Source: Bacteroidia bacterium
GTDB lineage: Bacteria; Bacteroidota; Bacteroidia; J057; JAIXKT01
Length of the DNA stretch: 52,453 bases
NCBI GenBank assembly: GCA_026932145.1
Contig: JAIXKT010000011.1
Location: forward strand, 1-52,453
Reading direction: 5' to 3'
Shown: positions 15,244 to 40,105 of the stretch, piece after piece
How positions within the stretch are numbered: position 1 is the stretch's first letter
How the letters are laid out: every line of letters begins with the position of its first letter
Notes under the pieces: generated by a model
Seen by the model: the letters and a program-made list of their open reading frames with translations, nothing else
The model's database searches: none
What the model was told of the DNA's origin: nothing
Translations under genes and position numbers: made by a program

Positions 15244-15336
15244 TGTTTATTCCCTTGTAATTATATTTTACCGAAATAAAGACTTACAATTCAACGTCTT
15301 TAATAGATTCGCAAAAGTTTTTCTTCGGTAATTGTC

Positions 15337-15344
15337 TATATTTG
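15337..15344 (+). promoter_or_regulatory. -7 promoter box of porQ-aroE
   Basis: TATATTTG fits TAnnTTTG and overlaps a possible TTG start at 15332, which argues for translation from the ATG at 15356, 11 nt after the box. Confidence 0.6.
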
Positions 15345-15355
15345 TAGCAGGTTTC

Positions 15356-16399
15356 ATGCGTTTCGGATTATTATTTATTTTTTTAACTTACTGTTATTCA
15401 GTAAGTGATGCCCAGATCGGCGGAAGATTTGTTTTTGATTTTTTACGGCTTTCGCCGGGTGCGCGCATTGCAGCCAATGGAGGAGCTAACGTTTCCTTGT
15501 ATGATAGAGATCTTTCCGTAGCTTTTTTTAACCCGTCTATCAATTCCGACTCTATGCACAGTCGCGGGCAAATTGGCATAACAAGCTATTTAGCAGATAT
15601 TTCCTATGGGTCTTTCGCCTACTCACATCGTATTGCCGGAAACCTAAATTTGTTTGGCGGACTTCAATATGTAAATTATGGAAAGTTTACTGAGGCCGAT
15701 GAATTTGGAAATCGTATTGGGAATTTTCGTGCTAATGATATTGCTTTTGTTGCCGGACTTTCCCGAAGTTTTGGTGAATATGTGCGTTTTGGCGGTAACT
15801 TTAAGTTTATAACGAGCTCTATTGCAGGGCGTTCTGCGCTTGGAATAGCTATGGACTTAGGCGGGCTTTTGTATATTCCGGAAAAAAGACTCTCTGTGGG
15901 TGTTTCTTTCAGTAATGTAGGTGCACAACTTAAGACTTTTTCACCGGCAGATTCACCAGACCCATTGCCTTTGGACTTGCAAATTGGCGTTACACATAAG
16001 CTGGCACATACACCTTTGCGCTTATCCCTAACGCTTGTAAACTTGGTGCGCCCTACCTTAATTTACAAAAATCCCTATCAACCAACTCAATATGACCTTG
16101 CCGGCCAAGAAATTCCACAAAAAATTAGTGCCGTAGATAATATCTTTCGCCATTTGGTATTTGGAACAGAACTCGTGCTTTCTAAAAACTTCCATATCCG
16201 TTTTGGCTACAATCATCAGCGCAGACAAGAACTTAAACGCCAAACTCAAGGGCTATTTCTAACCGGAATGTCTTTTGGCGTAGGTCTTCGGGTGTCAAAA
16301 TTTTACTTAGACTATGCTTACAGTAACTTTCATGCTGTTGGCGGTGTACACCAGTGGGGTATCAGCACTTATTTAAATTCTTTCCAAAAGAACCCGTGA
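15356..16399 (+). CDS. porQ: Type IX secretion system protein PorQ
   Basis: 347 residues from ATG 15356. A signal peptide (MRFGLLFIFLTYCYSVSDAQ) is followed by the family's opening GGRFVFDFLRLSPGARIAANGG and a run of amphipathic strands typical of an outer-membrane barrel (RFGGNFKFITS, LDYAYSNFHAVGGVHQWG near the end). PorQ is an outer-membrane part of the T9SS and acts with the PorU/PorV/PorZ attachment machinery that handles cargo with C-terminal sorting domains. The ATG is chosen over an upstream TTG because the -7 box covers that TTG. It overlaps aroE by 4 bp. No other T9SS core gene is in the window; a T9SS cargo remnant lies at 28860-28970. Confidence 0.85.
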   Translation: MRFGLLFIFLTYCYSVSDAQIGGRFVFDFLRLSPGARIAANGGANVSLYDRDLSVAFFNPSINSDSMHSRGQIGITSYLADISYGSFAYSHRIAGNLNLFGGLQYVNYGKFTEADEFGNRIGNFRANDIAFVAGLSRSFGEYVRFGGNFKFITSSIAGRSALGIAMDLGGLLYIPEKRLSVGVSFSNVGAQLKTFSPADSPDPLPLDLQIGVTHKLAHTPLRLSLTLVNLVRPTLIYKNPYQPTQYDLAGQEIPQKISAVDNIFRHLVFGTELVLSKNFHIRFGYNHQRRQELKRQTQGLFLTGMSFGVGLRVSKFYLDYAYSNFHAVGGVHQWGISTYLNSFQKNP

Positions 16400-24982: not shown

Positions 24983-26212
24983 ATGACTGAAAATAGGTTC
25001 AAAATTTGGATTTTCTTTTCTATTTTAAGTTTTTGGGTAGTTTCAGCAGTGGGCACGCTCATGCGCTATAAAATTGGTTTTGAATTTCCTTTTTTTTACC
25101 AAAAATACTTACTGCACGCTCATTCACATTTTGCCTTCGCCGGTTGGGTTACCCAAACGCTGATGATATTGATGGTTTATAGTATTCGAGAATACCTAAC
25201 TAACGCTAAATTAATTCAGTATCAGCGGATTTTTGGTGCCAATTTAGTTGTTTCTTATGGGATGTTAGTCTTCTTTACGATTCAAGGTTATGGGCTTTTT
25301 TCGATTACATTCTCAACACTTTCCATCCTAACATTGCTTTTCTTTACTTATTTATTCATCAAAGATTTAATAAATAATGATTTAGTAAACAAGCATTTAT
25401 GGTTTATTGCTGCCTTATTTTTTAATTTTTTATCTATTTTTGGGACGGCAAAGTTGATTCACATGATGGCTACGAAGCAAATTGTGCAGGATACTTTTTT
25501 AGCCTCCATTTATTGGTATTTACATTTTCAGTATAACGGTTGGTTTTTCTTTGCTTTTTTGGGGCTGTTTATCTATTATTTAGAAAAAACCTACGGTTTT
25601 CAGTTACCTAAAAAGGTTTTTTACTTATTAGCAGCAGCTTGCATACCTACTTATGGTTTATCTCTTTTGTGGGCAAACTTGCCGCTTTGGATTTATTGCA
25701 TAGTGGCAGCAGGAGCAGTAGTACAGGTTTATGCCTGGGGAGTTTTTTCTAAGAAGCTGGTTGATGTTAAGTTACATATTTTTCAGAATATCTTTGAACC
25801 CCATAAACTACTGTTAATTGTTGCTTTACTGGCATCTACCACAAAGTTTTTGCTACAATTTATTTCGATAGTACCGGAAATCAGCAAATTAGCTTTTGGG
25901 TTTCGGCCAATTATTATTGCTTATTTGCACTTAGCACTTTTGGCTATGACTTCGATGTTTTTGCTGTATTTATGCCTAAAGAACAAACTTTTAGAGAATA
26001 ATCATATCTTCAGAATCGGTGTCTTTGTGGTAATTACTGGCGTTCTTTTGAATGAACTCGTTTTGTTAATTCAGGGACTTGCTTCATTAGAATATCTACC
26101 ACTTGATATGCTTACATTTACGAATGAATCATTATTTGGTATTTCTGCGCTTATTTTTATAGGGATTGCCCAATTGATAGTTTCTCAGGTTCAGGCTCTA
26201 AAAAGTTCTTGA
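24983..26212 (+). CDS. Polytopic membrane protein, distantly like haem-copper oxidase subunit I
   Basis: 409 residues, almost entirely hydrophobic helices (about 12 segments). The second segment has HAHSHFAFAGWVTQTLM, and later ones have KLIHMMA and YWYLHFQYNGWFFFAFLG, a pattern of His and Gly-Trp that recalls haem-binding helices of cytochrome oxidase subunit I or NnrS-like proteins. The HPEVY motif and a clear CuB histidine set are absent, so oxidase activity is not supported. Haem or metal binding in the membrane is a guess from the histidines. No respiratory genes are adjacent; it is a single gene with its own promoter. Confidence 0.6.
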   Translation: MTENRFKIWIFFSILSFWVVSAVGTLMRYKIGFEFPFFYQKYLLHAHSHFAFAGWVTQTLMILMVYSIREYLTNAKLIQYQRIFGANLVVSYGMLVFFTIQGYGLFSITFSTLSILTLLFFTYLFIKDLINNDLVNKHLWFIAALFFNFLSIFGTAKLIHMMATKQIVQDTFLASIYWYLHFQYNGWFFFAFLGLFIYYLEKTYGFQLPKKVFYLLAAACIPTYGLSLLWANLPLWIYCIVAAGAVVQVYAWGVFSKKLVDVKLHIFQNIFEPHKLLLIVALLASTTKFLLQFISIVPEISKLAFGFRPIIIAYLHLALLAMTSMFLLYLCLKNKLLENNHIFRIGVFVVITGVLLNELVLLIQGLASLEYLPLDMLTFTNESLFGISALIFIGIAQLIVSQVQALKSS

Positions 26213-26406: not shown

Positions 26407-27513
26407 ATGCTTAGTAGGGTTCTTTCGTTTTGTTTATGCTGGTGTGCGTTAACAACAGCCGTATTTGCGCAACTTGCCGGCAAGTTGTACATAGGGCCGG
26501 AAGTGGCCAAAAATACCGGTTTTGTGATGTCGCCGGATTCCGTATTTAAATTAGTTCCGCCACAAACGCGAGTATTTATTGAATACCGGAACAGTAAGCC
26601 ACTGCTGATTGACACCTTATTTATGGTTGTAAAATCTGTCAGTGGAGCTACGCTAAAATACTATATGAAAAAAGGCAAAAATGGGTATAGTGCTTACGGT
26701 AAGATTTTCTTTAAAAAAGAGGGAATTTATCGTGTAGCGGTATTTAACCCTCGCCAATTAGCGAAACCAATCGCCTCTATGCGATTATACATAACCAGCC
26801 AAAACCACCCAACAATTGCTGCATTAATCGAACGCCAGAAAAAAATCCTCGTTGAACGCGGTAAACTAAAACAAAATAACACGGCTTCCAACAAACCCAA
26901 TACCACCACCAACAAACCCAATACCACCGCTACAACCACAAACCCAAGCACTACCAACAAACCCAACACTACCGCAACAACCACAAACCCAAGCACCACC
27001 AACAAACCCAACACCACCGCTACAACCACAAACCCAAGCACCACCAACAAACCCAACACTACCGCAACAACCACAAACCCAAGCACCACCAACAAACCCA
27101 ACACCACCGCTACAACCACAAACCCAAGCACCACCAACAAACCCAACACTACCGCAACAACCACAAACCCAAGCACTACCAACAAGCCCAACACTACCGC
27201 AACAACCACAAACCCAAGCACCACCAACAAACCCAATACCACCGCTACAACCACAAACCCAAGCACCACCAACAAACCCAATACCACCGCTACAACCACA
27301 AAACCCAATCAACAAACCCAAAAAACAGTTGTTGATGATGACGATGATGATAGCGATTTAGATGATGATGACAAAAGCACAAACGAAAAAGATGACGACA
27401 AAAACTATTCCGTGGACGACGATGATGTTTTAGACATTGATATAGACTCCTCCGATGTTGATGAAGCCACTTTTCAAGATGATGACCCGGAAGAAGATCT
27501 GGATGACCTATAA
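26407..27513 (+). CDS. Exported Thr/Asn/Pro tandem-repeat protein with Asp-rich tail
   Basis: 368 residues in three parts. A signal peptide (MLSRVLSFCLCWCALTTAVFAQ) leads to a globular N-domain (about 22-155, with strands such as TRVFIEYRNSKPLLIDTLFMVVKS). Residues 169-298 are tandem copies of the 15-residue unit NKPNTTATTTNPSTT: eight full and one partial. The C-terminal 60 residues are highly acidic (clusters of 4-6 Asp). The middle resembles a mucin-like or glycosylated stalk, and the tail could bind cations. There is no T9SS sorting domain, lipobox or membrane anchor, so location beyond the inner membrane is unknown. I recognise no family. It ends 50 bp before the convergent murG gene. 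Confidence 0.75.
   Translation: MLSRVLSFCLCWCALTTAVFAQLAGKLYIGPEVAKNTGFVMSPDSVFKLVPPQTRVFIEYRNSKPLLIDTLFMVVKSVSGATLKYYMKKGKNGYSAYGKIFFKKEGIYRVAVFNPRQLAKPIASMRLYITSQNHPTIAALIERQKKILVERGKLKQNNTASNKPNTTTNKPNTTATTTNPSTTNKPNTTATTTNPSTTNKPNTTATTTNPSTTNKPNTTATTTNPSTTNKPNTTATTTNPSTTNKPNTTATTTNPSTTNKPNTTATTTNPSTTNKPNTTATTTNPSTTNKPNTTATTTKPNQQTQKTVVDDDDDDSDLDDDDKSTNEKDDDKNYSVDDDDVLDIDIDSSDVDEATFQDDDPEEDLDDL
26911..27300 (+). repeat. In-frame 45-bp tandem repeat with 90-bp higher-order pattern
   Basis: Copies begin at 26911, 26956, 27001, 27046, 27091, 27136, 27181 and 27226 (eight full units); the ninth (27271) is complete for ten codons. Synonymous differences (ACC ACC GCT ACA versus ACT ACC GCA ACA) alternate A-B-A-B-A-B, then B-A-A, so the recent duplication unit was mostly 90 bp. 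Because 45 is a multiple of three, copy loss or gain keeps the frame. Confidence 0.95.
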
Positions 27514-28970: not shown

Positions 28971-30361
28971 GAGCGTGTTGCATAACCTCTAAATTTTTAA
29001 AAAAGCTCAGATTTTCTCCCGTTCAAAATAAATTTTGATTTTTTGGGGAGTTTATGGGGAGTTTTTTTACAATTTACGTCTTTTTTTGTGGGTGTGGGGT
29101 TTCATTTTTTATGTTTTTGCCCCTTTTTCGCCTCATTTTTACCAATTGGGCGTATTTTGGGCCTACAGGCTTAAAATAGCTGCATTTGAGGTGGTGCCGT
29201 TTTTGGTGTTAACATATTGTTTACTAATAGCTTAGGTAACCTATACAGGTTGTATGCAATTGCTTCCAGGGCGTGCTGGGCGTGGGTTTTGGCGATGCCC
29301 ACATAGCGGGCGGTGCCGCCGCCGAACCAGCTTTTGGTGCCGGCAAAGGTGCGCTCTATTTTGTAGCGGTGTTTGCCGCAGAGTTGGTTGAATTTGAGTT
29401 GTAATTTTGTTAAGGGTTTGTTTTTCACTGCTTTATAACACACTCTATCTTTAAGTCCCTTCGCTTTGAGGTAGGTGGTATGGGCTTTGGATTTGTAGGC
29501 TTTGTCGGCATAGATGGCGACTTTTGGGGGAACTTGTGCCTTGGTTATCAATGTGTTAAAGTGGTTATGGTCATGGACGTTGGCGGGTGTGGTCTCCAGG
29601 GCAAGGACCAATCCGTTGCCGTCGGTAATAACGTGTTTTTTGTAGCCAAAGCGGGTTTCTTTGCCTTTTTTGAGCCAGCGGGCTTCGTCGTCCACGCCAG
29701 GTTGATTTACTTTAACAAGCTTTAATTCAGCCGTTTGTGTTTGTATAGCTTCTTCCGTTTGTTCGTTTTCTTTTCTGTCTTCGGCAATTTCGTAGGTGGG
29801 TTTTCCGGTGGGTTTGCGGGGGCTGTCGGTAATGGAGGCATCTATTATGCAGCCGGATTTTACCGTAATAGCATGTTTATCAAGCTGTTGGTTAAGTTCT
29901 TGCAACAGCAAGTCGTAGGCATTGCTTCCTGCCAGTTCGTTGCGGAAGCGGCACAGGGTGCTGTGGTCGGGTACTTCGTCTTCAAGACTCAGCCCAACGA
30001 AGGTCATCCAGCTTAAATCGGTGTTGGTCCTGTCTTCTATGTCTCTGTCGCTCAGGCTTTTATACCAAACGCCGAGCAGTAGCATTTTGAAAAGAATAAT
30101 GGGGTTGTAGGCGGGTCTGCCGTCCGGTCTAAGCCCTTTTGGGTAGTGTTTTTGAAGTATTTTTACGATTGATTCCCAATCAATTACCTCATTTATTTGC
30201 TTTAGAAACGCGTTTTTAGAACTGCGTTTAGAAACGTAGGGCTGGCTAAAACTCATCTGTATTTGGGCGTGCTTTATCACACCACAAAAATAATAAATTA
30301 GTTAATTAATTCAAAATCAAATAGTTAAATATTTTTATTCTTTTTGTCGTGCAACAGGCTC
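28971..30361 (-). mobile_element. IS5-family insertion sequence, complete
   Basis: The ends are imperfect inverted repeats: GAGCGTGTTGCATAAC at 28971 and GAGCCTGTTGCACGAC in reverse complement from 30361. The outer border on the transposase-start side is confirmed by the independent partial copy at 3-62, where identity stops at the same base. No target-site duplication is visible (CTCGTT on one side, TTTTAA on the other), which fits an IS-mediated deletion. About 200 bp (28971-29170) after the transposase are non-coding. Confidence 0.85.
29171..30280 (-). CDS. IS5-family transposase (DDE, DUF772 type)
   Basis: 369 residues. The N-terminal DUF772-type domain reads RPDGRPAYNPIILFKMLLLG then WMTFVGLSLEDEVPDHSTLCRFRN. 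The DDE domain has GCIIDASI (first Asp), AIYADKAYKSK (second Asp) and YKIERTFAGTKSWFGGG (Glu with the following Arg). All catalytic residues are present and the frame is intact, so it may be active. Its base composition is visibly richer in G and C than its neighbours, which suggests a different recent host. Confidence 0.93.
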   Translation of the reverse strand: MIKHAQIQMSFSQPYVSKRSSKNAFLKQINEVIDWESIVKILQKHYPKGLRPDGRPAYNPIILFKMLLLGVWYKSLSDRDIEDRTNTDLSWMTFVGLSLEDEVPDHSTLCRFRNELAGSNAYDLLLQELNQQLDKHAITVKSGCIIDASITDSPRKPTGKPTYEIAEDRKENEQTEEAIQTQTAELKLVKVNQPGVDDEARWLKKGKETRFGYKKHVITDGNGLVLALETTPANVHDHNHFNTLITKAQVPPKVAIYADKAYKSKAHTTYLKAKGLKDRVCYKAVKNKPLTKLQLKFNQLCGKHRYKIERTFAGTKSWFGGGTARYVGIAKTHAQHALEAIAYNLYRLPKLLVNNMLTPKTAPPQMQLF

Positions 30362-39217: not shown

Positions 39218-40105
39218 AGAGGTTGTTTAAAAATGGTGTAAAAATTGTTAAATTATTTAATATCACATGGTTAAATACATATTTATTTGTATATTGCTGA
39301 TTATTAATCAGATAATTAAGCAAGTATGAAAGCCTACCCAACCAACCTAACTGATATTCAGTACGAAGCTATTGAAAAAATAGTAAATGATAACAGGAAA
39401 AGAAAGCATCCTTTAAGATGTATTGTAGACGCATTATTGTACATCACCAAAACTGGTGTTCAATGGAGATTGCTGCCTAAAGATTTCCCTAAGTGGCAAC
39501 TCGTTTATTATTATTTCAGAAAATGGACAGCAGAAGGGCTTATTGAAGAAATACATGATTTTTTGCGTGATAAGTTAAGAAAGGAAAAAGGAAAACATGT
39601 TTCACCAAGTCTTGGATTAATTGATAGTCAAACTGTTAAAACTTGTTCTTTCTCGTTATCAAACGGTTATGACGGAAACAAGAAAATTAAAGGAAGAAAA
39701 AGACATATTATTACTGACACATTCGGATTTATTATAGCTATTGTGATTCATAACGCTGATATTCAGGACAGAGAAGGAGCTAAATATGTTCTTGAAGAAT
39801 TAAGATATAAGTACCCTAGATTGACAAAAATATTGGCAGATCAAGGTTATACCGGTAACTTAGCTGAATGGATTTTAAAAAGTTTGAATTACACTTTGGA
39901 AATTGTAAAAAAAGTGGCAGGAATTAGTGGATTTAATGTCTTACCCAAGAGATGGATAGTTGAACGAACTTTTGGATGGCTTGGTTTTCAACGAAGATTG
40001 GTTAATGACTATGAATTCCACCCCGAATGCAGTACAAGCTTTGTGCACTTAGCTATGATTAGAATTATGCTTAAAGAATAAAAAAATAAATTTTAAACAA
40101 CCTCT
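39218..40105 (+). mobile_element. IS5-family (IS1031/IS427-like) insertion sequence, complete
   Basis: Perfect 15-bp inverted repeats AGAGGTTGTTTAAAA at 39218-39232 and 40091-40105 bound one intact transposase gene. Flanking trinucleotides (TTC and TAG, or TCA and TTA if shifted by one) do not give a clean target duplication. It is unrelated to the element at 28971. A 15-bp palindrome (39297-39311, CTGATTA T TAATCAG) lies just before the transposase. The flanks 39010-39217 and 40106-40128 hold nothing I recognise. Confidence 0.88.
39326..40081 (+). CDS. IS5-family transposase (DUF4096 + DDE)
   Basis: 251 residues. The N-terminal DUF4096-like region (LTDIQYEAIEKIV, GVQWRLLPKDFPKWQLVYYYFRKW) precedes a DDE domain with LGLIDSQTVKT, TKILADQGYTGN and KRWIVERTFGWLGFQRRL. 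Catalytic Asp, Asp and Glu are all present. The frame is single and intact, without the two-frame layout of many related elements. It starts at ATG 39326 inside the inverted repeats. Confidence 0.92.
   Translation: MKAYPTNLTDIQYEAIEKIVNDNRKRKHPLRCIVDALLYITKTGVQWRLLPKDFPKWQLVYYYFRKWTAEGLIEEIHDFLRDKLRKEKGKHVSPSLGLIDSQTVKTCSFSLSNGYDGNKKIKGRKRHIITDTFGFIIAIVIHNADIQDREGAKYVLEELRYKYPRLTKILADQGYTGNLAEWILKSLNYTLEIVKKVAGISGFNVLPKRWIVERTFGWLGFQRRLVNDYEFHPECSTSFVHLAMIRIMLKE

Follow-up and report, generated by a model that had tools for sequence, protein, structure and literature searches.

The locus and its features

The window, by which we mean the whole 52,453-nucleotide stretch of DNA analysed, was confirmed to carry a 368-aa ORF on the plus strand at 26407-27513. 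Its product combines a signal peptide, a head domain, a junction, a long stalk with a tandem array and an acidic C-terminal tail (Table 1). Two ORFs on the minus strand that overlie the array, of 193 and 151 aa, were rejected as mechanical by-products of the repeat. Directly upstream, on the same strand, lies a gene for a multi-span membrane protein of 409 aa (24983-26212), which gave no Pfam match. Elsewhere in the window, the gene at 15332-16399 is PorQ-like (type 9 secretion system, T9SS) by eye and had no Pfam match at E 0.01. Two different transposase-like ORFs, IS5-like by eye, are present at 29171-30280 and 39326-40081; one is located between murG and a Mrp-type ATPase gene and the other lies further right.

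Table 1. Features of the repeat gene and its product, in window coordinates
Feature	Residues	Position	Strand	Basis or remark
Signal peptide	1-21	26407..26469	+	Hydrophobic N-terminus; predicted cleavage between VFA and Q; Q-rule, PMC5837995
Basic Ig-like beta-sandwich domain (head, predicted)	22-143	26470..26835	+	Net charge +13; AlphaFold2, Foldseek, VIA-align, relatives
D-S-V motif, Bacteroidetes O-glycosylation type	D44	26536..26544	+	Present in 17/17 aligned members; motif as given in PMC4604654
Second O-glycosylation motif, D-T-L	D69	26611..26619	+	Glycosylation motif in 13/17 members; motif as in the same paper
End of C-terminal helix and junction	144-161	26836..26889	+	Net charge +4
Lys/Thr/Asn/Pro stalk	162-307	26890..27327	+	Net charge +12; predicted disordered, pLDDT about 31-37 mostly
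Eight perfect 15-residue units NKPNTTATTTNPSTT		26911..27270	+	45 bp each
Acidic tail	308-368	27328..27510	+	Net charge -30; 29 Asp, 4 Glu; C-terminal EEDLDDL

An earlier note on this DNA had described the product as exported and suggested a surface protein. Export was borne out by the signal peptide, in which Gln at +1, nearly invariant in the 17 aligned relatives, follows the Q-rule for Bacteroidetes SPI substrates (PMC5837995). The window protein has Gln at the predicted +1 position and no Cys anywhere in its mature part, hence no lipobox, and no NCBIfam model of the T9SS C-terminal sorting domain matched any of the 17 members, whose C-terminus is the acidic tail. The surface location is thus unsupported, and a soluble protein that is periplasmic or freely secreted appears likelier than a surface-anchored one. 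The phylum-wide O-glycosylation motif, which PMC4604654 (citing Coyne et al. 2013) gives as D(S/T)(A/L/V/I/M/T), was present in the head at D44 and D69 and absent from the stalk. The two head motifs are candidate sites, and their conservation may be structural.

The tandem repeat array

Tandem Repeats Finder placed the array at 26891-27308 (period 45, 9.2 copies, 93% matches, score 704). The eight full copies of the unit showed zero amino-acid differences, as the earlier note had stated, with partial units at both ends; the number of units is uncertain, since short-read assembly may get the length of a 418-bp array wrong when it contains an exact repeat of 134 bp. Five sites vary among the units, every one at a third codon position. 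These synonymous variants had been described as alternating between two types, A and B. The order was B A B A B A A B B, so that the alternation holds for units 1-6 but is not significant overall: there are 7 runs in 9 units, and exact enumeration gave at least as many runs in 27 of 126 arrangements (P = 0.21).

Growth mainly by 90-bp steps had also been proposed. The self-identity of the array was 0.924 at offset 90 and 0.917 at offset 45. The longest exact repeat, of 134 bp, lies at offset 90 and units 2-3 are exactly equal to units 4-5, indicating one recent 90-bp duplication, whereas a general 90-bp mode is at most hinted at. That the array expanded recently agrees with the lack of amino-acid change among its units and with its absence from every relative examined. 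The repeat unit was not found elsewhere in the genome. As far as sampled, the array appears to be private to the source species, and it seems to have grown out of an ancestral linker that had the same composition.

Fold, relatives and genomic context

The AlphaFold2 model of the head was an eight-strand beta sandwich with a C-terminal helix (pLDDT 83.1, pTM 0.74; built from three sequences, with 2/5 models confident). The closest solved chain was PDB 6oe6, an uncharacterised Leptospira protein (Foldseek E 2.3e-4). By VIA-align both are Ig-like sandwiches (Z 10.2, 103 residues, 2.9 A); they share 12% identity and belong to different phyla, and the comparison covers the domain. PDB matches below rank 1 were mostly antibodies and other Ig-like chains, reflecting a common fold only. 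An Ig-like fold is predicted for the head on this model.

Pfam, NCBIfam and PDB sequence searches of the family members returned no credible family; PS_pyruv_trans and UBA_Crd2 scored below the cut-off, differed between members and were rejected. A first contig scan with the window sequence as sole query gave no match. In all, the family set comprised 24 members, 17 of them aligned; they belong to a single class of Bacteroidota and are spread over two of its orders. Within the order of the window the family was present in 3/22 genomes, and the source genome has a single copy. Homologues from two genomes of this order, about 30% identical in the domain, both had the signal peptide and the domain, followed by a Thr/Asn/Lys/Ser/Pro stalk of 44 aa and an Asp-rich tail of 39-40 aa; neither had the tandem array. 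The co-occurrence of stalk and acidic tail, which the earlier note had wished to see checked in homologues, was therefore found in both same-order relatives, with a stalk of 146 residues in the source species versus 44 in these nearest known relatives. A class sample of 395 genomes yielded further members in another order, where the family occurred in 12/13 genomes, most of them with a second copy, and where the linkers are much shorter; a phylum sample of 395 genomes yielded zero further members. On this sampling the family appears restricted, and the architecture of head, stalk and tail is conserved among relatives.

In 11/11 contigs of the other order (L029-L039), the family gene has lgt on one side and a DUF58/VWA gene on the other, mostly with ispE following, and in most of them it shares 4 bp with the start of the DUF58 gene. 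Pfam confirmed the DUF58 and LGT assignments in L033; ispE was assigned by sequence resemblance. This neighbourhood was not seen in the order of the window and yields no function. Second family copies were located at L030:10900-11511 and L040:2428-3060 and in L058-L064. The one in L030 comes after an AhpC/TSA-type redoxin gene; in L028, where a single copy was seen, a redoxin gene comes next. L041:6917-7870, in another family of the class, encodes an exported protein that has two weakly head-like domains (E 0.002) and lacks an acidic tail.

Charge partition between head, stalk and tail

The stalk had been called neutral. It contains 12 Lys, one per unit, and zero acidic residues, giving a net charge of +12, and is composed of 44% Thr, 21% Asn and 13% Pro with 11 N-x-S/T sites. 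We know of no N-glycosylation system in Bacteroidota. The description of the tail as about 60 residues rich in Asp held well, with 33 of 61 residues being Asp or Glu and a longest Asp run of six. In the mature window protein, the head and junction carry +17, the stalk +12 and the tail -30, for a net charge of -1.

The same partition was found in 24/24 members. The basic Ig-like domain had a net charge of +8 to +17 (mean +11.9, pI 10.0-11.7) and the acidic C-terminal remainder a net charge of -16 to -34 (mean -21.0). For comparison, 168 other ORFs of 150-450 aa were taken from the contigs of the members, and none had a charge of -14 or below in the last 55 residues; two rows flagged as background are paralogues of the family. 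Conserved basic positions of the head include K76 and R126 (each 16/17 aligned members) and K89 (15/17). Across members, head charge and tail charge were uncorrelated (Spearman -0.09, P = 0.67). Asp and Glu interchange between the tails of relatives with the net charge retained; tails in the other order are Glu-rich or mixed, and in L039, for instance, the part C-terminal to the domain has 3 D against 23 E. Such interchange indicates that charge, not Asp itself, is what is kept. In the full-length AlphaFold2 model the tail had a pLDDT of about 44-49 (for the stalk, see Table 1) and was not confidently placed; the linker and tail of the window protein are predicted to be disordered.

Discussion

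The reading we favour, tentatively and at somewhat less than an even chance, is that the protein is exported and soluble, that its basic Ig-like head binds an anionic partner with the tethered acidic tail as internal competitor, and that the number of repeats sets the length of the tether. The partner would be located in the cell envelope or beyond it, and the disordered tail would transiently occupy the basic face of the head, suppressing non-specific binding and giving way to the right partner. Linker length would set the effective concentration of the tail, so that amplification of 45-bp units, by lengthening the linker, would allow a looser self-interaction or a longer reach. The combination of basic folded domain, linker and acidic disordered tail was found as a charge partition in 24/24 members, the disorder being a prediction for the window protein alone. 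The head-tail contact, the anionic ligand and the tuning by repeat number we infer by analogy. In bacterial Hfq, the acidic C-terminal tip binds the basic core, where it and RNA compete for the basic rim, and how strong and stringent the autoinhibition is depends on how many residues the linker has (PMC5606850); HMGB1 is autoinhibited by D/E repeats (PMC10250230). With the chain parameters of the Hfq paper, the effective tail concentration was estimated at about 0.2 mM for a 153-residue linker and about 1.3 mM for one of 47, a rough figure that ignores tail length and the stalk lysines, and one further unit would shift it by slightly more than 10%.

Other functions for the tail were weighed against the same data. 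It could be a docking tip for partner proteins as in SSB, with the head holding one ligand and the repeats lengthening its reach, which we judge somewhat unlikely. The lgt-linked members and the window protein share an acidic ending with a closing Leu (EDL, DDL, DEL), suggesting selection on the extreme C-terminus, and SSB likewise joins a beta-rich domain through a low-complexity linker to an acidic C-terminal tip, of 9 residues after a 56-residue disordered linker (PMC7145534). However, no single end motif is shared: DDAD closes the two same-order relatives, and the second copies finish with LDD, DDE, EEED and similar endings. SSB itself is a cytoplasmic, non-exported protein of OB fold whose tip binds partner proteins. 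If the tail did no more than balance charge, it would keep a very basic head soluble and non-sticky towards the envelope with no regulated contact. The net charge of -1 of the mature window protein fits such a role, but other members are over-compensated, down to -19, which shows that neutrality is not what is conserved, and we hold this reading unlikely. Binding of calcium or mineral, for which 29 Asp in 61 residues and the run of six would speak, seems very improbable: tails of the other order are Glu-rich or mixed, no spacing like that of EF-hands or RTX repeats was seen by eye, and the mineral- or cation-binding role suggested by the earlier note is weakened by relatives that freely swap Asp for Glu while the net charge stays.

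The remaining alternatives concern the stalk and the head. A length-variable, glycosylated, mucin-like surface stalk, also raised by that note, would suit the Thr/Asn/Pro composition, the N-x-S/T sites and the recent array expansion. What stood of the mucin likeness was the Thr/Pro-rich 15-aa tandem units; it is a likeness of composition only, since the known O-glycosylation motif of the phylum (PMC4604654) is absent there. The linkers of the other order are much shorter, and with neither a lipobox nor a T9SS C-terminal domain match, we consider a surface stalk quite unlikely. As for the head, it could be akin to the first domain of Plug, a type 9 secretion protein, and act at the outer-membrane translocon. 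In three genomes the family profile matched Plug-like proteins at E 2e-4 to 8e-4, and one of these proteins (L065) was confirmed as a true Plug (PF17116, 6e-25, 87.9 bits); hhalign of the family against Plug gave a probability of 74% over 45 columns, and the source genome holds one Plug gene. The likeness is that of an exported protein with a weak profile match, which was limited to the last two strands. A G-x-Y motif is common in these strands of Ig-like domains, and for this reason no kinship with Plug is claimed. Moreover, PF17116 matched 0/17 aligned domains, so that no family member reaches it, and a Plug role sits poorly with a family found in only 3/22 genomes of the order. We regard this origin as scarcely probable at all.

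Returning to the tail as a tethered competitor of the head, a bolder version would make the protein an exported rheostat, in which gain and loss of 45-bp units tune binding through head-tail competition in steps rather than as an on/off switch; to this we assign little probability. The family offers a natural series of linker lengths for the tether idea: short in the other order, 44 in the closer relatives and 146 in the source species. A literature search on periplasmic acidic-tail proteins found nothing. Among known systems, HMGB1 resembles the window protein in having an acidic disordered tail that inhibits basic domains (PMC10250230). It differs in being eukaryotic and in its HMG-box fold. 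We know of no comparable tandem array in the HMGB1 linker. A parallel in layout is Hfq, with a basic folded core, a variable disordered linker and an acidic C-terminal end (PMC5606850), although Hfq is a cytoplasmic RNA chaperone of the unrelated Sm fold and its tip spans a few residues versus about 40-60 here. For Hfq and other cytoplasmic proteins, measurements have already shown that linker length tunes autoinhibition by an acidic tail; what the present family adds is an Hfq-like layout in exported bacterial proteins, with the charges of head and tail kept at about 20-30% identity.
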